A stretch of 64,000 nucleotides of DNA from NCBI GenBank assembly GCA_022829145.1, contig CM040763.1, forward strand, positions 12,571,141 to 12,635,140, given 5' to 3'. Source of the stretch: Albula goreensis (Eukaryota; Chordata; Actinopteri; Albuliformes; Albulidae). The translations under genes and the position numbers were made by a program. This document shows positions 11,593 to 53,942 of this stretch, in pieces. Position 1 is the stretch's first letter. Every line of letters begins with the position of its first letter. The notes beneath the pieces were generated by a model that saw only the letters and a list, made by a program, of their open reading frames with translations, had not been told where the DNA came from and made no database searches.

Positions 11593-21506
<9,914 letters not shown>

Positions 21507-26708: not shown

Positions 26709-33011
<6,303 letters not shown>

Positions 33012-34110: not shown

Positions 34111-35052
34111 TTTGTATAAACAGAAGTCTTTGATGCGCTTGTTATTTACTTTACCCCTAGATCAGCAGAAGTGTGTATGTGAAAAACATTGGCTGAGATG
34201 CATGTACCTCTTCTTCCAAAACAATTGGAATTAATTCTCCTAAAAACCAATTTATATACACATGATGCTATACATTTCCTGTACATTTGCAGTGGCAGAA
34301 TAGCTGGACAAAAATAAGTTAATAAGAATTAGTAGTAAGTAAACCATTGCTGTTCATTATCAAGAACCAACAAAAGAGAGTCTAAGATTTTTCACTGTAC
34401 CCTTCCTCTAGAAAAGGGTTATTGTAATTAAAGGTATAATTTTTACAGCGATGCTCATAGTCTCTTAACTCACAGTGAGTCACAGTTTATTATGAATAAG
34501 AAGGCAGAGAAATGTGTGCAAACCCATCATGTTCAGATCGTATCAGGCTGATGATATTAAAAGGTGCTGAGACTGAGATTAAAAGGATTGAGAATCATCA
34601 CAACAGTGTAATTATGGGGCGCTGAAGGGATTTTTGGATAATCCATTTTACCATGATAAGCCATACTGTCATAACATATGATCTGCTCACAAAGCCAATG
34701 CCATCATTTGTTGGCTAGATTATCAGTTACTAAAGTCGAAGCAAAATGCAGTTTTCTGTTCATAAGGTTCTGTGTGTCTTGTGGGTACTGTCTTTTTTTA
34801 AATGCACGTTGTGATATTAGCTGTATAAATCTAGCCAATGGTTTTCCCTTTGTCAGGATACTCTAGGCCTGGTTCTGTCTCTATGTCATCCACGGTATTC
34901 CTCGGAAGACTCCGAGCTTGTGAAGGCATATGCACGAGCTGCAGCCATCCTTTGGGCAAGCCCACTCCTCAGAAAAGAGGCCCATCGACTGGCAGGGCCG
35001 AGAGAACCTGATACGACACGGTAGTTTGGGTAACCATGGCCAGTGGGAAAGT
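34111..35052. other. Region between the convergent ends of cdkl2 and the odaph-like gene
   Basis: Non-coding as far as can be seen. On the minus strand AATAAA (reverse of TTTATT at 34486-34491) is a candidate poly(A) signal for the odaph-like gene, about 560 nt after its stop codon. No other feature is supported. Confidence 0.35.
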
Positions 35053-36537
35053 TCAAGTTGCCGGGACACTCCCTGCCACAAACCATGGTCTGCCATTGGG
35101 CACCAAGAAAGGGACGAGCATGAACCCGGGATGGGGGTTGTGAGGGACGATGGGTGGCTGCCAGCCATTGCCTACTGAGGGGGAGGCGGCTGGGTTGGGC
35201 GGTCGAGCTCTTCCAACTGTGACCAGTGGAGGGGTGGTGGTGGGCTTCGGCACAGGCGTGGGCGTGGGCGGTCTCTCAGTGACAGGGACGATCCTGCAGA
35301 CTGGCTCCACTGGCTGTCCATCAATTAAGTTTGGCTCAAATCCCGTCAGCCATGTGTCCTGATCCGGCACAGCTTTAAGGGAAACAAAGAACATCAGACA
35401 GCACAGCTGCCTCTGAATGCACTCCGAACAGTGAACCTCAGCCTCGTTTGTCAATTGGACAATTAAATATACAGCTGCATAATAATAGAAAATGTATAAC
35501 CTTGTAAACCCTGCAAGCTGCTTTGGTTGTGTATTAGATAAGCAAAAAATCTAATAAGAGCACTGTTATACGACAGTCATTGACACCATTATGTTCCTAA
35601 GGAACAGTATTATGGATTTACCTCCATCGGAGGACAATAAAACAGATGCATTAGAAATATTAGCCAGACTAACACGGTAATACTCTCACGTGTTATTTCT
35701 TGCTTTTGAGCTTAGGTATTTGGTAGGTAGTCATATGGTCTCAGGGTGGAGCCACTGATTTACATGACTGTACTGGATAGAGGTGTCACACTTAAGCTGT
35801 AGTGGGAATGTAGTCACTCATGAAATTCTCTACCCAAGCTCATTATAGCCAGTGAGTAATCATTCCTAATGAGTCATGTCACACTATTTGACAGGCTTAG
35901 TTCAAGGCATAAAAGTCACACTTATGCAGTAATGTGGAAATTAAGTGCATCAGGGTTGGTAATGTGGCTGGGGAAGAGCCAAATGTGACAATTTAATTTT
36001 CCAATAAAATGTGCCATTAATAATCATCCATAAATAATTGCAGTATATTATAACAAGTCAAATGTAATTACATTCATAACCATATATATTGTAATAATTT
36101 TCATGGAATGCAAGGCCATGTCAAACCAACCACAATTTAGACATAACACATCAATACATTTTCTATATGAATGCAATTTAATGTGTGCGTTTTCTGTATT
36201 ACTTTAAGTCTATAACTGTAATAAATAATTGGATAATTGTCTGGGGCTACAAAATGCTAATTCTTATTTACTAATTTTGTATTAAAATTGTCAAATTTCA
36301 TTTACTAATTTTCATATTTCAAAACAAACATTTCAAGGTTTCCTACAAGCTATTTAATGAGCAGAAATATCCATTATTATCCAGAATGTATTCCTGTGCT
36401 ACAATTCTGAATTAGTACAGTTGGGAAATACTAAGATGAATACAGAGTTTAAATCACTGACCTGGGGCTGAAACAGCATGGTGCACTTGGATCAAGAGGA
36501 GAAGAAAAGGTACAGCTCCTATCTGACCGAGGTCCAT
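35053..36537 (-). CDS. odaph: odaph-like gene: small secreted proline-rich protein (proposed ODAPH orthologue)
   Basis: Two coding exons on the minus strand, 36537-36462 and 35372-35053, join (CCAG/GTCAGT donor, CCTTAAAG acceptor, phase 1) into a 131-residue protein. Residues 1-24 are a classic signal peptide (MDLGQIGAVPFLLLLIQVHH, then AVSA before the likely cut). The mature part is short, proline-rich (PPTPTPVPKPTTTPPL about 59-74) and has one cysteine (Cys51), no transmembrane segment and no Ser-x-Glu site. Human ODAPH, an enamel-matrix secreted phosphoprotein mutated in amelogenesis imperfecta, is 130 residues with signal peptide, a Cys-x-Ile then proline-rich segment, and is the next gene after CDKL2 in the same relative orientation. 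Here VEPVCRIVPVTERPPTP occupies the equivalent place. The ATG is chosen because it directly precedes the hydrophobic core and follows the acceptor TTTTACAG by five bases. The gene structure is well supported; orthology rests on position, length and weak similarity, and another small secreted matrix protein is possible. Confidence 0.7.
35373..36461 (-). other. odaph: Intron of the odaph-like gene
   Basis: This 1.1-kb A/T-rich intron separates the signal-peptide exon from the main coding exon. No repeat or exon was recognised in it. Confidence 0.6.
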
Positions 36538-40492: not shown

Positions 40493-43400
40493 CTATGTGA
40501 ATTTCTTAATGAAACGAAGCTTTAGATACGCAATCAACAAGAAAATGACCGTCATTATTATCAGGGCAACATGATTCTGCCAGAGTCCCCAGGTTGTGTA
40601 TGTAATTCCTTGGTTATCCAAAAACTGCTCACCGGTGCACCTGTAAATAAATTAATTGGAGATGTTATCAATCAATTTAAAAAGCAGACTTCAAATGTGT
40701 TGACATGGAGCTGCAGTAATGTGCTTTAAAGTGGCATGCTGTCCTTGATAATGGGTCAAAAACTAACTGGTCAATTGTATCCACAAAAGCAGATGTTACA
40801 AACATTTCCCAGTAGATGGTGCTACAATGTGCACTCTGGGAACAGATTTAGTGCCATCTGCTGGAATGACTACCAAATTTTACAGAGTACAGTTATATAC
40901 GTGGACATATTATATTCCTTACATCAGACCCGGTGCTTCGATAGTACAGTTGATCCCTGGAAGCATGGTGGGTCGAACTGGAAGGTTCTCACAGAACTTA
41001 AGACCCACAAATTCATTGATCTGCAGAGCCTAGTAAAATAAAGAAAAACAATTACACCAATAAACCAATAACCCTTATGCCTACAACTGGGAGATAGACT
41101 GCAGTCAGTCAGACACTTACGGTCAGTCCATATCGAGGGATACTGAGGTACTGAAACCAGGCTAGCCAGTCCATGATGCTGGGCAGGTTCACCAACAGGC
41201 CAGAGAAGATCTGAAACAAATGTGGATCAACCTCTGGATATGGGATCAGTATTAGGACTTAGTGTATTTAGGCATTTTAAAACTGTATACAGTCATCATG
41301 CAAACGTCATTATCTGGCTTAGTGAGCAAGAAACCTAATATATCACAGTGAAACACATCTGTCATGTATCCCTTCTGCACACATGTCTGACTCACCATCA
41401 TGAACACGAAGCTGATGGTCATGAAGATGTTGGCGACAGCAACCACGGTCTGATCAGCGGAGATCGCCATCGTCATGGCAGTGGCGGCGTAAGCCACCAG
41501 GGCCACCGACACCATGAAGATGAAGAAAGCAGAAACCGTGGCTTTGAACCCTGCAGGGGGGTGACAGCATGGACCAGAGTGGGTGGCCTTCATGATGACG
41601 AATCAATGAGTGTTGGGCTCCTTTCGCCTCCTTTCTGTCTGCCTCTCGCTCTCTCTGTTCATCTACCTTCAATCTGTCTCCCTCTGCACCCAATGCATGC
41701 GAGTGTAGTTTACTTTAACAATTAAAGTTAATTAGATAATTGGAGGTTGGAGATGCTACAATCTGCAACAATTTTTACTTTTATGTAATCCAGCAGATCA
41801 TTTCAGAACAGTGTTCTTATGCGCAATGAGGTTTGTTTTTTATGTTATGTAAAAAAAAAAAAACCAGAGCAGGTGCTGCTTACCTATCATGAAGTATGCC
41901 ACGCAGCTGAAAACTATGGCAGGAATGGTCCGAAGGGTGATGATGTCAGACAGGATCTTCGACAGGAAGTACACAGAGACTCTGTAATACCCACTGATGT
42001 ACTCATGTCTGCAGACCAGGAGAAAGTAGCATCATTTCATTATGTGCAAAGTAACACGGACCAGTAATTACCATGTTTTAGGCATTACAAGTCTTTTGGT
42101 ATTCATCTGCTTGACAAATATATGAATATACACTGCTCTTTGTGTACTCAATACACTTTGCGATGGGATTGAGCAACTGTGGCAATCATGGTATGGAATG
42201 TATGTGCTGATACCCAGTTTCAGTAAAGCATTCTGTGACCTGAAGAAATTCGCCAGAGGGGTGCAATACATTTTAATGTATATTCTCTTCTTTTTTCCCC
42301 ATCTGAATTGAACCTATGAACAGCTCTACCACAGTTACCTTCTCCCAAACACTCAGGGAGAAGAGTCCCCCCAAGTCTTCCTCTGATTCACATTGCAGAT
42401 ACCTCACTAATTACTCTGGAGCCAGAAGGGCAACTTGGTAAACATATTCTAAGTTAATAAGCTGGCAGGTGCCCAGTTGGCAAAGATTGGCCACTAGAGG
42501 GTCATGAGACTGATTATAAACTCCTGTCTTTCCCTGGTGAGGCCAAGCCAACTGTTTCCTGACCAATGTGGACCTCCAGCTCCGCTAGGATGTGAAAAAA
42601 CAGTTGCAGAACTCAGAGGGCGATGGAATGACTAATGAACTCACACAAAGAGCTTCCTCTCAGTGATGAAGAGCTCAGCTGCAGACAGGGACCCGAAGCA
42701 CTGGTTGGTGGTGATAAAGAAGAGAGCTCCCATCCTGAAAGAATGACATCTAATTAACCTGGAGAACACTCTCACCAAGCACCACACAAACAGTATGCCA
42801 ATCCAACAGGCTGCAGCGCTACATTTCTGACTACGTGTTCTAATGATTTACTGCTACTAATCGACTTTCTATCAATCACATGCTGTGCTTACGACTGCAC
42901 ACGTTCTGTGACAAAACACCACCTACATTTAAGATAAAGTTATTTCAATTCCACTAAGAGGCTTAGCTTACAACCTAAGAGATGATGAAAATAATGGTTG
43001 TATACATACATAAACAATCATCCCACAATAATTGTATAATTCATTACCTATTTTGCATTCCACTCTGGTCATCTTTCACACCAAAGAATATTGCTCCCAC
43101 TATAAGAGCCAGGAACACAGTCACTGCCACCTGTTGAAGAGAACAGAAACTCTCAAGCTGGCAATCTCCATTTAGGAGTATGCAGTACTTCCAGGTACAT
43201 GAGAAATGCTTTGTGGAAGCATGAGCCAAACTGTCAAAGCATCACAGTCCCTAACCATATCGGTGTTGCTTTTTTAGCATGACCTTGCTTGTATTGTGCT
43301 GAGGAGGAGGAGATGCGCGTGTTGTATGTGTGATTAAGTGGTTACACCAGGCACACCTGGTGTGTTAGTGTTTCTCCGTGTGAAAAGCTAAGCTTGTGAG

Positions 43401-46400
43401 GTCAAGCCCTTTCCTCCTGATTTCCAGAGCTCTTCATGTGGAAATGCATCGGGGGTCATGACGCTATCATGTGATGGTGCTCGCCGGCGCTAAGAGCTTT
43501 AGCGGCCCGCGGCCTCGGCGAGATATATCACTTCAAATCCTGTCGGCGGAGGCAACATCAGGGTCGCAGCGGTCACCAAAGCTGCTTTGCCGAGCTTGGG
43601 ATCATTATTTGGTGCCAATTAGTAGTTAATCATTCTTAAAGTGAGTCCTCTTGATGGCATTTCATTGCAATGTGTCACTAATGAGTCGGAAAAGTTTCCC
43701 AGTTGAAAGTGGATTGCGGAGGCAAAGAGTCTGTTTGAGAGTCAGATTAGCCGAAAGTCGCTAGCACGGGTAAGCCCTGTCATGAGGTCACTCGGAATCA
43801 CAGATGAATTTCCTTTTTTCACAGCATGTTTGAAAGGTCTTAAAGAAATTGGTGCGACATTCTGCTAAACATTTCTAGCATTCTGTCCAAAACAGGATTC
43901 TAGCATTTACTTCTGAACTATACATTTTACACTGACATTTTACATTACTTATTATAATACTATAATAAGCCCACAAAGACGAACCAGCCATTTTATTTTT
44001 TTAACTTAAGACATAATACATACAACTGATTGGGAAGCCTGAACGTCATGACACCTTAGGTCAACTGACATATCTTCCTTAACAGAGCCAATACAGGCAC
44101 TGATACAGTCTCAGACATCTAGGATGCACATGATAAATACAAAAGCCCAGACCAGTGCACTGCCGATGAGCACCTGGTGAGTAAATACTAAAGGTAACTA
44201 TGGCATTGTCACTACGAACCACAGGGCATATTTGCTTAACAGTATTCGTTTCACGAAAATCCCTTCCCAAGGTAACTGATAACAGTTACTTGTTAATGTA
44301 CTGTTCGGTACTGCAGTGCATGTTGCATAACTTTAATATTTAAATGTCACACTAATGGGTCCATCAGTTCACTGTGGTTGGTTTAGGTAATTCTGTAAAA
44401 CTGATTCTTGCACCATTACAAACTTTACCTTTTAGATGTCTTGTAGCACAGTGAAGGCAAATAGCCAAAATGTATGTTTTAATTCCAACCTGTTTACCAA
44501 ACTAAAAATGGCCATCATTTGAGCTTTCTTTAGACCAGACTTTTTTCTCTTTTTTATGAACTTTCTTACACTTGCATTGCCACCATTACTTCCTCTGACC
44601 TGTGAAACCAAAACAGAAAACTATACCTGAGCAACAGAGGTCTGCGGGTTCAGCATGAGGTTCCGGAATGTTCTCTTGAGGACCCACTTGAACTGGTGGG
44701 CAAAGGAAGTGTTGTAGGTGATGGTGCGGGATTTGGGTCGGGTGGTGTGGTCCTTGCCCTTCACAATCCTCTCCAGCTCTGCTTGGGTGTTCCTGTAGTT
44801 CTCACATTTCCTGTACTCCTCCACCAGGCGGTCCTCGATGCTCTGCCGGTTCTTGCCCTTTTCCTCAAAGTCAGGCTCTGTGGATCCATGACAAACCAAC
44901 GTAAGACCAAGGGGGGTCATTTCCACTCTTCTTCCCACTCACAATCACACTCATCATTAGTTAAAAGTACTTTGCTGTGGTTTATCTGCCCTCTTATGAA
45001 AAAGTACTTTATCTGAAAATTGATGATATTTACCATATGTACATATGTAATGTGTGTGGGGAAGTGTTGTGTCTCTGTTCCAACTGAAGTATGTACTGAT
45101 TATCACAACTGGTTCATTCTATTACTGTTTCTATTATCTGTAACTCTGTGTTATAATGAAATTGCATCATTTTGTTTTCTTTATAGAACACTGAGATACA
45201 TACACAACAAAAAAGCAAATACCCAAACATAAGCATAATTTGATAAATTGGCATTGTTTAGTCCTTGGTGTATAGAGGAACAGAAAGGAAATGTACAGTA
45301 TGTGGAAATATTCCATAGTGAGGAATAAGAAACTATATGGCCTTATGTGAAATGCAAACTGTGTGTAAACTACACACATTTCTGAAGACTCTGCACTGTG
45401 CGTTCACCTTTCAAGCTGCACATCCACGCTTAATTCATCTTAAATTCAATAAAAAATGAAATTATATACTTTTATATTCCCATACCTTCTGAATTCTGCA
45501 TTTTTGAAAAAGCCACTGCTGTTGAATCTCCGTTGATGACATCCAGAAAGAAGTCAGCTGGGTTGTTATGGGCCTCACAGGCATAACCTGGAACGTCACG
45601 ATGAAAAGGACCCTTATGACCATGGGAGCAGCTCAGAAACTACACCTTCAATCATGACGCCACTCTGTAACACATACATGCTCCCAGTACAGTTCATTCT
45701 GGAGTGTAAATCCATTTTGTCATGGCTCATATTACCTATGCTACTAATAAGGCATAATCCATGTCAACTGGGTCAAAGGGGAATGCACAGTACAAGTCAA
45801 GCTCACCAATGTTAGCAAAGTAATCCAAAGCATCCTGGGCAGGCCCATGGTAAACCTGCTTGCCGCTGACCAGAAGGGTGAGACTGTCGAACAGTCGGTA
45901 AATGGAGTATCTGGGCTGGTGTATGGACATAATGATGGTGCGCCCATGATTGGCCATTCTGAGGGAAACAGAGCATGGGTAAGGAGCCAGTGACCTGAAA
46001 GCCTACAGTGCATAACATTGTCAAAAGCATGACTTAATACCTGTCATAACAGTTCATTAAGGTCCATTCAATTCAACCGCTATTCGACATTGTAGCCATG
46101 TGCCTTTGATGTCACTGATCTTAAGGAACAATCCTTAGTTTTATAAGGGACTTTTCTCCCATTAAAAGCATGTTACTGTAGCTTCAGGGAGTTACTGTAC
46201 ATCCACAGGTTAATATGCAGCCTGAAGTGTAAGAGCAGGAGATATATTAGGTTTTGTTGTGACATTAAATTATGATATAGCTCAAAAGTCACAGCTCAGA
46301 TTGTACAAAGACAGACAGCATCGTACTAAGCCCTGACCCTTGAGGAACACCATATACATCTATAACACTGTGTAAGCGATAAAAGCTGAAGGACTTAGGG

Positions 46401-49400
46401 AACTGCTATCAGGAAGTTAAGTACAACTTGACCCAGCAGTGGGCTCTGGCAAACAGACAAACCTGCTTAAGCAGAATAATTTGGTTAACAGGAAATGTAT
46501 TAAAACAAAATGTTCACACACCTAAAAAATGCTGTTGGAAGTATAAAGAGAAACAATTTGCACTAAAGGAAAAACTTCCCCACACAAAGTACAGTGTGTA
46601 AAACTATAAGCTGTGTATGTCACTCTGGATAAGGGTGTCTCCTAAAACTCAAAATATAGTGTGATGTAAATACTTAGACAACCAACACTGATAGACAAAA
46701 CAGTATTACTCACCCTGACTACAGCAGTTCATAAGCTATGCTGCTACATGAAACCTGATTAGAAAGGTTCAATATCATTGGATTCAAGGACACCATGGCG
46801 TTATGCAAATAAAACTTGTACAATGACCTCTACTAAAAAAAAAAAAGGACGTTTGATGTGAGCGTGCAAACATTTAGGATAAATGGGTTGAGACCAGACC
46901 TTTTTATTGCAGGAAGATGGAGGAAATAAATCATGTAATGTTAGCTAGTGTGTAACTTGCTGAGAAGTGGGAGCAATATCGCAGCATTTATAATAGTGCA
47001 GAGATGGTTTATGTGGATCCATATGAGACAAAAAAAACAGGAAAATGCACTGCCACACTAAGAGAAATGTTTTCTGTGGATTGATTTATAATAAAAGTAA
47101 CTGAAAAATCCTGCACAGTTTTACACAATATTAAAACATTAAATAGTACATTGAACTGTCAAAGTCAGACATTTGACTTAAACCTCCTGTAATTCATTTT
47201 TTTCCTGCTGTCCACCTTTAAAAATGAAAACTTTGACTGCTGGGCTGGAGTTCCTTTCATGTGAACCATTTGAAATAAACTTATAATGTGGAACTTGGAC
47301 ACGTGGAGTACAACCTTATGGGTTCATTCAAATGTTTCAGTTGCCCAGTCAATAGTGAAGAGGTTTTCTAAAATGCATACTTTAAAAACTGCCTCCATGG
47401 GAGTCATTTCCTAAACAGTTTCCTAAAAAGCTATCAGGTACATCTGATTGCTACAGAGTGGCCTGCACAGGTGAAGTGATGTTTAGAGTTTAGTGAGTGG
47501 CAGGGATTGGCTACACTGTGATTTTAGACTCTAAACACCGGATGACATTTGATAGATTCACCTCTTCAGGAGCAGAAGAACAGAATTGGCAGTACTAGCA
47601 TCCAGCCCGGTGGTCGGCTCATCGAGGAACAGAACTGATGGGTCAATGATAAGTTCCATGCCAATATTGGTCCTCTTTCGCTCACCACCTGAGATCCCCC
47701 TGATCATTTGGGTTCCAACCTGCAAAGCAGAGCCATCCACCACCAAGTGAGATGAGGTGAACCTAACCTGCAAGCTCCCAGAAGCAAAGTCCAAGGTGCA
47801 CAAGGACACATATGACCTTGTTGTTTACTACGGTAAACAAACACAGATCGTTTGCACTTGCTTTCACTGCACCGCACTCCATCCCTGATGCTCACCTTTG
47901 AGTCAGCCACTTTGGTGAGTCCAAGCTGTTTGATGAGGTTGTTGACTTTCTCCTCTTTCTCTCTCTCACTCACTGAGGTGGGCAGCCGCAGGGCAGCGGA
48001 GAAGCGGAAGTTCTCCCTTACCGTCAGAGTTCCCATCACAACATCATCCTAGTGGAGGAGAGCAGAACTGAGCGCACTTGTCAGGAAGTGGGCAAGGTCA
48101 GTCAGGAACATTTCTCACTTATGACAGTCTTGTAGTAAAATGCTCATGTCATATTTCTTACTCTGATGTCTTACCCTAGCATTCAAACATAATTTTACAT
48201 CCCTTGGCATGTTTATGTCCCATTCAGAATTTATCAGAAGAACATGTGCCAGTAAATGATATTGTTTGAATGGACTTTTCTCACTTGTTTCAAAATGTAC
48301 TGTTCAAAGGAATATACTGCTCCTGATGTGCCTAAAGTCCTTCTTTATCAGCCAAACCTGAACAACATAGCCCGAGAGACACTTGAAGTTGGGCGGCTGT
48401 GGAGCGCCATCGATCAGCACTTCTCCTGACAGTCCAGAAGGGTCTTTCCTGGCTGCCAGGACATCCAGGAACCTTACAACACAACCAGGGGAGTGCAGAC
48501 AATGTCATCTACCAGGGACAAAATCTGTTTATTTACAGTTTCCAAGGAGACCAAACACTTACTTTTCATTTCTCTGAAGCATAACAAAGTCCATGTGGGT
48601 ATAATAGGCACAAAACCAATACCATGTCCATGTTTAATAAATATTAACTGATTTATATAACCATGTATTATTCATTATATCCATGTGACCAATGCCAGAA
48701 CAAATTGGATATTTTCCATCTGAAGTTCATCAAGCACAACCTGCTAATTCAGTTCAGTACTCAAACCGTGGCTCTATATACTGTGCTGGGCTTCACATAT
48801 ATGACCAAAACAGTTTCAAGTGTATACCTTTTTCAAACAATGCCCACAAGTCCTTGTGAACTCCCACTGTCAGTGTTTTAGCAATTCAGATTTTTTATTT
48901 AGGAAATTGAGTTTTGTTGAGTCACATTGACCTCTTGCCGAGTAACCACAACAGTATTAAAGGAGGAGTGAACTTACGAGGACTTCCCACTTCCAGTCGC
49001 TCCCAGAATAGCATTGAGACCTGGTTTCATGAGCCCACTGTAAGAGGAGAAGTACATTAACCTCAAACTTCTCATCAGCATGTATAACACATTCACAGAA
49101 TTTTCTCAGCCTTTAGATTACCAGAAATTGGTCACACTGGGTGTATCACAGCATGACACTGCAATATTTCCTACAGTCACCATCTCAGCTTCAACAACAT
49201 AGTCAGCCAACAATATGTTAGCATAAATCTTTAAAAAAATTATCGTCAGGATAATGGAAATGAATGCACATATACATTACTAAATTCCTTAAAGAGTAAT
49301 AAAAGTAATAGTGGCAAAAAAATCATTTATCAATATTCTTTCACCAATAAAAGTAACTTTTTACATTTTCATTATACTTTTGTAGTCTCGTAGACTACTG

Positions 49401-52400
49401 TTTTTGTCAACATTTGCATGTAACATCACTCATAAAATGTTTTCATTTTTAAACAGGCGTCTCAATACTCTTTAGCACCACTTTACACATCAGTCTTCCC
49501 TTAGTTGTATCATGGGACTTTATTTATAAACATAGACGTTTGTTGTCATAACTGTTGTATGTGAAACATATGTCAAAATCAGCATAATCAAACACACTGC
49601 TGGGAGTGGAGCAAAAAAATCAGATGTTTGGGAACACATGAAAATATATTGCCAAAAGCTCTGGAAAGTATTAAGAATTCAAACCACCATCAGGATAACA
49701 GTTAGCTTAACTTGGTTATCCATAGCTGTAAGAAAACTGAGAGTGTTTCCTAATCTTTCTGGCTAGTCAGAGAATATACCTGCATATACAAACAGTTGCA
49801 CATGCATATATATACACTGATATGCCATAGCGTAGGTCACTGGAATACTGGGAGTAAAAGCCTATGAGACCAGAATCACATGACCACCCATAATTCTGTA
49901 TTCTGGCAGGCGGTGCTATGGTTCAACAAAAGAGATTATAACCAAGAAACCATGCTTAATAGCATATAATTAACACCATGGACAAAAGGCTGAAAACCTG
50001 TGTGAAATGATGCACTCTTCCCTGGGAAATGTCAAGTATACTTAATGCCAGGAGGAAATTTGGTTGCATGTTGTTCAGCGTGGTCAGGACTGCCAAATAT
50101 AGATGGCACTTAACAACTACATTTTGATTAACTTTAATGCCACACCTGTTTAAGAAGAGAAGTATCTCCAGAGTTGGGTGTTCATTGTTTAAAATGCCTT
50201 TCTTATAACAACCCTCCTATTTAAATTACCATGAGAAAAACGATCAATTTAATTTTAAATGTTCTTCATCCTCACTAGCCACCACTAACTTTCATTCAAC
50301 CGATGGGATCACTGTGAGATATCAACAGTTACTCAAGTAATGACACCACTACCCTGGGAAGGTTATTTTGAATAGCATTTCATACCATGCTCAAGCTACC
50401 AGTTTTATTAGTGTATCTACAGACCTGAAAACTGCACTGAGAGAATTGAACTACTGTAACATCGCTGTGGAATGTATTGGCAGGGAGCAAACACTTAAAT
50501 AACAACACACACACGTGGTTGAGTTAAACAACTCAGCAGACTTACAGCAAGTGACTTACAAAACATTAGATACTTTCTATGGTGTTGCAGGAAGTGGCGA
50601 ACAATAGCACACTGCAACGTGATCTTCAACTCTTACACACATCCTGTTAATGATCACACACTAGATCAATATAGTCTGAGTAGATAATGACTCCAAATTC
50701 CATCCAGGTTTCATAACAAGGAGGGTCAGATGTAAGAGACACGCAATGCACAATTAACAGGTGGTAACTGCAGGTGGAGGATAATTTGTGGCAGCCCTTC
50801 TACTTTTTCTTCACCTTTTACTGCTCCTTTGTCTGATCATAAACAACACTTCATATGATCAAGTTTTATGCTCTACAATGTAGGATGGTAAATCTTCCAG
50901 ATTTTAACAAGAGTTATATACAGAAATTATGAAACCATCATATAATAATCAGAAGGACAGAGCCTAAACTCTCTGGGCTTTCCTTCATAAATAATATTTT
51001 TTCTCAAAAATATGAAAAATGGTTTTATTTTATTCCAGAGAATGTGCTCCCTGACCACTTCCCATTCAGAGGGCTATGGCCCTGCCTACACCCGGTAGTA
51101 ACATGTGACTCTGGTCTTGTGAACACGGTGATTGCATGTTTCTGACAGGTGTAAACTTTCAAAAGGCACCAGGATCTGATTGTGTTCAGATCTGCCAGAC
51201 CTCCTGTGCAGGTGGATGGGCACATATGAGGTGTGGCTATTAAATAACGAGGCTTATGCAAGTCGAACCACAGCGCTCTTGCGCGCACCACAAGGTATGC
51301 ATTGACCAATGGGCAAGCAAAAACAACCCGTGAAAATTTCGATCAGCTCGCATCTTCAGTTTGCTGTTACGCATCGCTTGAAGTAGACAAGTTTTTCTCG
51401 AGCATTAGTCTCATTATTTAATAGCCACACCTCATAATGCATCTCGCTCATTTGTAATGTGCAATCATGCTACCAGAAGAGCAGTAGGCTGTGTTCTGCT
51501 TTGAGAAATATGCAACATACTTTTGAATACAGTTTGGTTATGGTCACAAAACAGACAGATACAGGACCAATAGTATGTGTAGACATAAGATCATCAGACA
51601 AGAATAATCAGACAATAAATGTCCCGCTTTGATACCACAAGTAAACGTGATGCCATGGTCAACTGCATCCCATGTAACATGCAAGCTTATGCATGTCACT
51701 GGAACTGCACTTAAGACAAGTGGTGTAGATTTAAAATGTCATCTGATATCTAAATGAAGGTATTATACTACATTTCATTATATCCATTTGGACACAAGCA
51801 AGACATAAATGACATAGTTAACAATCTGACACATTGCAATAATGTGGGCTAGATATGACACCGATTGACTAAACTGTCAGCATAACCAGATTTAATGACA
51901 GATACTCAGCTACCATGATAACATGTCCAGCAGTCAAAAAAGTGCTAAGATGTGGTGAGGAGTTAAGAACATCCCCCTGGGGGATCAGACCTCTGCTCAC
52001 TGCTGTAAAACCTCTTATCAACTGCACGTGTCTCCACTTGATGTTATCACCTATTCAGAACAGCAAAACAAGGAAAACTGGTCCCTACAAGATGAAAATC
52101 CCTGTAAAAAAATAATCACAAAATGGAATTTACTGCGGTTATGAAACATCTCAGTCACATTCTCAGAGCATAGTTTTCTGTATCCTGTTGTACAACCTAC
52201 TTGGCCTGAACATTACTGAATACCTTTCCATCAAAGTAGTCTGTTGAGCTTGGAATCATTTTTTGGCACTACACAGTAAACAAAAGTCCATATTTAGTCA
52301 TCAAACAGTTGGCCAACACATTATTTTGTGAGTTATAAAAATATCATTGTTTCTCTTTTATCTAAGACAATGAGCTGTGGACAGCAGGGGGTTCTGCTGG

Positions 52401-53942
52401 CGTTTTGTACTGAAGTAGAAAGCACACTGCTATAAACCCACATGTTTGGTGTGTCTGAATTGCCAACTTTGTAAAGCTTATCACATGTGAAATTCTCACA
52501 TAGGGGAAAGGGAGATGGGTGGCGACGGCAAACAGGATGAGAAACACCCTAATCCCTACAGCAGACCCAAGACCCCTGTCCCATTTCAGTATTCAACATG
52601 GACAGTTTGCTCTTACTGCAAATTTCATTACATTGTACTTTCTTTACTGTATGTTTACAACAATTATGACTTATTATTTGGTTGTTGGGTGACTTTACTC
52701 TGTAATTAAAATCAAGCCACTAACAACTTCCACAACACCAACAATACTCTATACTGAAAACCAAAGAATTTTCACTAATGTTTACATATTCATTCTATGA
52801 CCAATGACCAATACACTGACCAGTGCTAGGAAAATGATGAACACTGCTGATCAGAATTACACTGATGCCAGCACCAAACTTAATGACGCAAGATTTCGAA
52901 GCCTTGTTTTTGCAAAGCAATTCCTGATGAACGTGCATACTCAGGTAAATAAAATGGTTTGCCTTTGGACGCACCAGGCAAGAACACAGTATCTTTTAAC
53001 AGATTTCATATCCTACTTTATTCTGATGACACATGGCAGTCTGCACCCTTTATGAAGTCTGCGTTGGAGCTCCACAGTTGTTACTCTATATTTTACACCC
53101 ATAAAAATGTGGTCTGGGTCAGTGTGGTGAAATCACAGCTAAATCGCGGACTGATCCTCAGAAACAATGAAATTCCTTCCTTTCATTCAGTAACATCCTT
53201 TAATTATACTTATAATACAGGAGCAAGGCTCAAAAGAATGGAAGTGCCGCCCTTATCAATGAGCAGAAAAAAAGATGATCAGAGAATTTAAAAAATCTGA
53301 TACCACATTCAACGCTTTTGTCAATACAAGTTTTCAACAGGAAAAACCTGTATACATTGGTGATCTTAATACATTACAAAAGAATTTTCAGTTCAGTTTC
53401 ACTTTCTCAGCCAATGGTAAGTAAACTTGTAGAAGCCTTCGGCTTCGGCTAACATCCGCTGATGGACATCAGATTAAGGAATATCAAAATTGTATCTGTG
53501 CGTCAACAGCAGAATGACACTTCAACATTTCAGAAAAAGAGAAAATACACTGAGAAAAAAAGGGTTCCACATGGTTTCCTCGTTCATTATCATTGGTGAA
53601 CCTTTTTTGGTACAGTGTAGTAACCACTGTATGCTAGCCATTAATGAATGGTGCCCTCTATGAACCTCAGAACCTTTTGCTCTTGGAGCATAGGTCTCGT
53701 CTGGCTCTCTTCCTTCATTTAACATGCAGCGATACTTACTTAAGGTCCACCAGGATTTCTTTTGTGGTCACTTTCCTTTTGCACACTGGTCCGCTCTTGA
53801 GGTCCACGCTGTAATGGATGTTGTGGAAGCTGACCGTGGAGCCATGTGGAGATTTCACGTTGGCCCCCTGGCCTCCGGAGGCTCCATTTGAGCTAGCATA
53901 CTCTGCCATTGGGATATTAATGTGCTTCGACCTCTCAGTCAT
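40493..53942 (-). CDS. abcg2: abcg2 (ATP-binding cassette subfamily G member 2, BCRP), complete CDS
   Basis: Plasma-membrane half-transporter that dimerises to export urate, porphyrins and xenobiotics. Exons in order: 53942-53740, 49037-48978, 48472-48358, 48048-47896, 47719-47562, 45958-45807, 45587-45486, 44877-44627, 43130-43048, 42734-42645, 42008-41884, 41550-41396, 41210-41121, 41029-40923, 40640-40493; 1,992 nt, 663 residues (human 655). The nucleotide-binding domain comes first: Walker A GATGSGKS at 80-87 (Lys86), signature ISGGERKR, Walker B with catalytic Glu211 in [11 protein letters not shown], then the H-loop SIHQPRYSI. Six membrane segments follow, from about residue 395. Arg482, which controls substrate choice in human, is Arg at the same number. 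The extracellular loop keeps three cysteines (592, 607, 616). The end reads [12 protein letters not shown]. Numbering stays in register with human up to Cys592. The first intron is 4.7 kb. Identity is certain; several fish have more than one abcg2 copy, so an a/b suffix cannot be assigned. Confidence 0.97.
43440..43720. promoter_or_regulatory. CpG-dense intronic block in abcg2, candidate regulatory element
   Basis: At 43,480-43,600, within an A/T-rich intron of abcg2, lies a burst of CpGs (GCCGGCGC, GCGGCCCGCGG, CTCGGCGAG) including the near-palindrome GCTAAGAGCTTTAGC, followed by a TAATTAGT/TTAATCA-type homeodomain-like stretch. There is no open frame or repeat signature. Function is inferred only from composition. 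Confidence 0.3.
46595..46680 (+). repeat. SINE/LINE 3' tail fragment
   Basis: GTCACTCTGGATAAGGGTGT followed by CTCCTAAAA closely resembles the conserved tail shared by many fish SINEs and their partner LINEs (CGCTCTGGATAAGAGCGTCT type). No tRNA head is preserved upstream. It lies in the abcg2 intron between the exons at 47719-47562 and 45958-45807. Confidence 0.6.
49038..53739 (-). other. abcg2: abcg2 intron 1 after the start-codon exon
   Basis: The longest intron of the gene, 4.7 kb, separating the first coding exon from the Walker A exon. It carries the mariner-type MITE at 51,227-51,434 and otherwise A/T-rich sequence with no exon that could be supported. Confidence 0.7.
51227..51434. mobile_element. 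Mariner-type MITE with intact terminal inverted repeats
   Basis: The 208-bp element starts TGAGGTGTGGCTATTAAATA and ends with its reverse complement, TATTTAATAGCCACACCTCA; the terminal repeats match over about 33 bp with three differences. TA dinucleotides at 51225-51226 and 51435-51436 are the target-site duplication expected of Tc1/mariner transposition. The inside has no transposase reading frame, so it is a non-autonomous, internally deleted copy. The good TIR match suggests a relatively recent insertion. The family name is not known to me. Confidence 0.85.

Follow-up and report, generated by a model that had tools for sequence, protein, structure and literature searches.

We identified a candidate orthologue of ODAPH (odontogenesis-associated phosphoprotein, C4orf26; Pfam family PF15848), the gene of a secreted phosphoprotein, beside CDKL2 in a 64,000-nucleotide stretch of a teleost genome (the window; C23:12571141-12635140). 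The reading that we favour, with about even chances of being right, is that the locus is a teleost ODAPH orthologue whose end has been thrown out of frame by a real one-base change near 35070-35085. We infer the orthology, and likewise that the frame change exists in the animal, how old it is and what it does to the product; position and architecture make the locus a candidate ODAPH orthologue, and its assembled product is not filed as proven ODAPH.

Exon structure and neighbourhood of the candidate gene

Spliced in phase 1, the two exons (Table 1) encode 131 residues and a stop, with a protein end of GSVPAT, which agrees exactly with the two exons, in-frame splice and length given in the preliminary description (translation and splice check). 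The signal-peptide exon that it described is borne out by a hydrophobic core, the feature on which our call rests in place of a dedicated predictor. Its Cys-x-Ile followed by a proline run is also present: the last exon encodes Cys51-Arg-Ile and then a proline/threonine-rich stretch, which counts toward ODAPH identity. The donor scores 8.5 bits, the acceptor 9.3 bits and the whole intron 17.8 bits, on splice matrices and with scan thresholds of our own choosing. With an alternative acceptor at 35474, also in frame, exon 2 would start 34 residues earlier (35474-35373, minus strand), several cysteines being among the residues gained (VYLIVQLTNEAEVHCSECIQRQLCCLMFFVSLK plus the junction residue); this longer exon 2 was not adopted.

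Table 1. Positions of the candidate gene, its parts and its neighbours in the window.
Feature	Position	Strand	Basis and remarks
G3BP2	14166..21503	+	tblastn, human protein
CDKL2	26757..31252	+	tblastn, human protein; convergent (tail to tail) with the candidate gene
AATAAA, possible poly-A signal	34486..34491	-	about 395 nt past the second stop
Continuation in the other frame	34886..35052	-	54 full codons beyond the 131-residue stop, FPTGHGYPNYRVV...FTSSESSEEYRG; stop TGA at 34888-34886
Last exon, earlier reading	35053..35372	-	320 nt; acceptor TTTGTTTCCCTTAAAG|C; stop TGA at 35055-35053
Inferred one-base frame change	35066..35085	-	35082-35067 reads TTTGTGGCAGGGAGTG; joint scan with human ODAPH
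Intron	35373..36461	-	phase 1
Coding exon 1	36462..36537	-	76 nt; ATG, signal-peptide-like MDLGQIGAVPFLLLLIQVHHAVSA, phase-1 donor CAG|GTCAGT; translation and splice
ABCG2, other neighbour	40496..53942	-	tblastn, human protein; exon best matches human ABCG2 chains in PDB

The same architecture was sought on both strands of 264 kb (the window plus 90 kb to its left and 110 kb to its right), as a hydrophobic ATG exon whose phase-1 donor is followed within 3 kb by a good acceptor and then by 100 or more codons. Two loci were returned, the candidate gene and one other; the same scan, applied to 40 Markov resamplings, turned up 7 loci altogether (mean 0.175), spread over 5 of the 40. Because the thresholds were fixed after the locus had been seen, the scan serves as a guide and not as a significance test. 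The other locus lies in the left flank at C23:12553530 (window coordinate -17610), where a hydrophobic ATG exon is followed by a phase-1 intron into at least 100 codons.

The tblastn matches cover 436 of 493 residues of CDKL2, 410 of 482 of G3BP2 and 627 of 655 of ABCG2. Five of the 31 matches contain a stop; by eye, the alignment there overruns an exon edge or crosses an intron. With CDKL2 on the plus strand and the candidate on the minus strand, the opposite-strand neighbour named in the preliminary description was confirmed, and we take CDKL2 and ODAPH to lie tail to tail in human as well. A PP2C exon is found at the right end of the window and belongs to a gene that is presumably PPM1K, going by the human gene order. 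G3BP2, CDKL2 and the candidate ODAPH thus sit directly beside ABCG2 and the PP2C gene (14166-64000), two stretches that human chromosome 4 keeps separated by over 10 Mb. Among the matches listed, and by eye, the left flank (90 kb) holds USO1-, TEC-family kinase-, coronin- and ANP32-like exons and the right flank (110 kb) B3GALT-, UCP1- and TBC1D9-like exons. The candidate lies downstream of CDKL2, the place in which Liang et al. sought non-eutherian orthologues and which they treat as a criterion for ODAPH (Liang et al., 2021, PMC7807025, here and below as represented by excerpts).

A Ser-Ser-Glu-Glu tail in another frame

Non-mammalian ODAPH, including that of gar and reedfish, is described as having phase-1 introns, cysteines and a Ser-Ser-Glu-Glu (SSEE) stretch (excerpts of PMC7807025). 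The 131-residue protein is without SSEE; the motif is present in the DNA, out of frame as assembled. Another frame runs without a stop between 35275 and 34889; its end reads FTSSESSEEYRG, with SSEE at 34909-34898 inside SSESSEEYRG (34918-34889), beginning 144 bases beyond the 131-residue stop. Just ahead of that stop the same frame holds two Cys codons (35080-35078 and 35068-35066). The 131-residue end is doubtful, since a published ODAPH signature sits beyond it in another frame. The preliminary description had also argued from length, human ODAPH having 130 residues; this argument falls, as the frame ends ahead of the SSEE tail and the agreement of 131 with 130 is accidental once a frame change is accepted.

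Read in six frames, the 264 kb comprise 527,996 codons and hold SSEE three times. One of the three occurrences lies within 5 residues of a stop; that one is the candidate locus, which itself qualifies. When 100,000 stretches were resampled, SSEE appeared in either other frame 171 times, and in 44 of these cases that frame was open over 50 codons or more. An out-of-frame SSEE arising by chance is unlikely, and because the signature was in print beforehand, we regard it as the strongest single piece of evidence for ODAPH.

The place of the frame change was estimated by scoring joints between frames against human ODAPH. The top three joints fall at 35070-35076, in a scan so biased that joins to frame 0, which hit stops early, could hardly win. 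A GGG run adjoins the inferred break. Splicing was considered as another route to the tail. We scored all GT-AG introns of 60 nt or more, with donors from 35342 on, that would bring SSEE into frame; the highest-scoring was 35083/34988 (phase 2, 95 nt), at 10.6 bits. Of 600 random places, 62.5% reached this score, by a somewhat looser rule that required a frame shift and left the openness of the frame aside. A third exon by splicing was rejected, the best rescuing intron being at chance level. Phase-1 GC/GT donors gave 11 pairings that reach SSEE, none of them plausible by eye (the two with a GT donor were also scored). As no intron above chance reaches SSEE, a one-base change of the coding frame is the simpler reading.

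If the change is real, the break is probably recent, because the splice sites, the frame before and the frame after are otherwise undamaged and the tail stays open for 54 codons. These same observations, together with the neighbouring GGG run, would also fit an ODAPH orthologue that is intact in the animal, with a protein of about 188 residues ending in SSESSEEYRG and a base error of the assembly, for example in the G run. We consider such an error unlikely. The G run is short, and across the CDKL2, G3BP2 and ABCG2 matches (31 matches, 1473 of 1630 residues) no neighbouring pair within 70 nt differs in frame. Six of ten small contigs sampled (C28, C29, C30, C35, C207 and C208) have lengths of 14.3-14.7 kb, as single long reads would, which suggests HiFi reads and with them high base accuracy. 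The unbroken neighbour exons and the HiFi-like pieces are our grounds for favouring a real frame change.

Before the proposed change, the first exon would have given the signal peptide and the last exon a secreted, proline-rich chain with a Ser-Ser-Glu-Glu phosphorylation site at its end. If the analogy with known ODAPH holds, this protein may have been secreted by the tooth epithelium and phosphorylated at SSEE by FAM20C. The frame change near 35070-35085 would then end the protein after 131 residues and deprive it of both the second cysteine and the SSEE tail. The truncated product is likely to be non-functional or altered, judging from p.(Arg77*) and p.(Trp106*), two truncations that lead to enamel disease in human (excerpts of PMC13331816). 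A working 131-residue orthologue, whose tail was lost through an old, tolerated frame change and which acts without the SSEE site, would explain the intact splice sites and signal-peptide frame. This seems very improbable to us: a tail given up long ago would hardly have stayed open and kept its SSEE, as this one has, so that a recent change is the likelier case, and human truncations ahead of the SSEE site cause disease.

Likeness to human ODAPH and genome-wide searches

The mature part of the candidate was aligned globally with human ODAPH, the joined protein carrying an X at the joint. The score was reached by 13 of 2000 shuffles with the tail joined and by 217 of 2000 for the 131-residue protein. 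Local alignment did not rise above shuffles for either form (591 of 2000 for the 131-residue protein, 440 of 2000 joined), and neither did the tail alone (1359 of 2000 locally, 1506 of 2000 globally). With stops read as X, frame 2 reached z 1.92 (28 of 1000) against human ODAPH and the other frame, over its whole length, z 1.70 (57 of 1000). For frame 0 the value was z -0.09, and for the three frames of the plus strand 0.52, 0.94 and -2.35. The gain from joining the frames is modest, because the unjoined frames alone reach z 1.92 and 1.70. Taken as sequence, the candidate is weakly similar to human ODAPH.

The PF15848 profile matched neither the 131-residue nor the joined protein at E up to 10, and it matched human ODAPH at 3.4e-48. 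We do not hold this miss to be decisive, since Liang et al. report limited identity outside eutherians (excerpts of PMC7807025). The same source describes non-mammalian ODAPH as having three exons, with one cysteine in exon 2, an exon that mammals have lost. The two coding exons advanced in the preliminary description as an argument for ODAPH are therefore the mammalian layout, and that argument lapses. Within the intron (36461-35373) we found 26 frame-compatible candidates for a non-mammalian exon 2, none of which combines good sites with a cysteine, in a search on sequence alone and hence of low power. The best-scoring of them, 35967-35920, has 48 nt, no cysteine and a weak donor.

Of the earlier case for orthology, the arguments from length and from two exons were lost, and what supports it now is position, orientation, the phase-1 intron, the Cys-x-Ile/proline run and SSEE. 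The missing profile match, the weak likeness to human ODAPH and the one further locus that the signal-exon scan gave in 264 kb would suit a gene other than ODAPH, either a secreted proline-rich gene peculiar to this lineage or a frame open by chance between CDKL2 and ABCG2. Such an origin would require place, orientation, intron phase, Cys-x-Ile/proline run and SSEE tail all to coincide, and we judge it quite unlikely.

The candidate DNA occurs at a single place in the genome, which comprises 932 Mb in 208 contigs. A genome search with the joined protein returned three pieces of the candidate locus only (8 candidates scored). PF15848 gave seven fragments genome-wide, of which not one reached its cut-off of 27 bits or fell at the candidate locus (8 candidates scored). 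The best of these has 24.3 bits, E 0.023 and three stops inside, and stops are found in four of the seven. The check named in the preliminary description, for a true ODAPH elsewhere in the same genome, thus found none by profile or protein search (8 candidates scored in each), the profile search having little power because it misses the candidate locus too. No second CDKL2 was seen among the 47 matches listed (144 of 481 candidates scored). Among these matches, the best CDKL2-like exon sets from elsewhere in the genome have 64-70% identity, compared with 76-98% for the window exons, and are presumably related kinases such as CDKL1. The enamelin and ODAM profiles matched nowhere in the genome, controls included, and were uninformative; a PHROGs scan found nothing.

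All 17 of the contigs C1-C25 that were measured are at least 23.7 Mb long and fall in size with number, C26 has 0.75 Mb and nine later contigs have at most 34.4 kb, which points to 25 chromosomes. With the PF12284 profile (8 candidates scored), seven Hox-13 loci were found, each on a contig of its own, which by eye are HoxA13-, HoxB13- and HoxC13-like pairs and one HoxD13-like locus. Four Hox-13 genes are expected without the teleost duplication, so seven mark a teleost genome. Two HoxB13-like genes are apparently whole (L043 on C22 and L044 on C19); zebrafish is not known to have a second HoxB13, and two retained HoxB13 genes may hint at an early teleost branch. A tarpon-like fish of such a branch would be our guess. 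In the HoxD13-like locus (L048 on C6), a TAG lies within the matched N-terminal domain and the homeodomain exon looks whole. Tarpon, arowana and zebrafish have n = 25, and eel and arowana have eight Hox clusters (excerpts of PMC4835728 and PMC9730501); the excerpts of PMC3286462 hold nothing on Hox-13 genes.

Significance and comparison with known ODAPH genes

In humans and mice, enamel does not mature without ODAPH, and mammals that have no teeth carry the gene in inactivated form (excerpts of PMC13331816). In mouse, ameloblasts express it from the post-secretory transition, and when it is truncated, a cyst parts them from the enamel and maturation fails (excerpts of PMC7807025). Teleosts are described as having neither tooth enamel nor ganoin (excerpts of PMC8423624), so an ODAPH that was whole until recently would need another use. 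Such retention is less strange given that ODAPH is functional in three mammals having teeth without enamel (excerpts of PMC13331816). We tentatively propose, with rather more doubt than confidence, that the teleost kept ODAPH under selection long after the ancestral loss of enamel, for a role in enameloid or epithelial attachment, and that the gene was broken or cut back recently. In the literature searched, with partial coverage, we found no report of a teleost ODAPH, and 'odaph' is absent from the main text of a 2026 SCPP survey of 63 teleosts and from the bowfin genome paper. If our reading is true, a near-whole teleost ODAPH with a single break would mean that the gene was useful without true enamel until recently. 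The loss of ODAPH could then be mapped against tooth type across fishes, and the fish would be a natural test of the role of ODAPH apart from enamel.

The candidate can be compared with three known systems. With the P/Q-rich SCPP genes it has in common a small secreted proline-rich protein; SCPP introns are of phase 0 (excerpts of PMC7807025), whereas that of the candidate is of phase 1, and on this ground SCPP membership was rejected. Mammalian ODAPH shares with it the CDKL2 neighbour, a phase-1 intron that closes the signal-peptide exon, a single long exon at the end and the Cys-x-Ile followed by a proline run, while the acidic Ser/Glu end is found in the candidate only at the DNA level. The human intron follows base 67 (c.67/68) and is likewise of phase 1 (excerpts of PMC13331816). 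The candidate differs in having no PF15848 match and an end that is out of frame. The joined candidate has two mature Cys codons, against three in the human sequence.

The gar and reedfish genes, compared here by description, belong like the candidate to ray-finned fish and share with it the place beside CDKL2, a phase-1 intron, a cysteine and Ser-Ser-Glu-Glu (excerpts of PMC7807025). Elsewhere Liang et al. state that Odaph arose in reptiles, which conflicts with their own gar and reedfish orthologues. Those genes have three exons, whereas in the candidate no exon 2 was found, SSEE lies in another frame and the host is a teleost.
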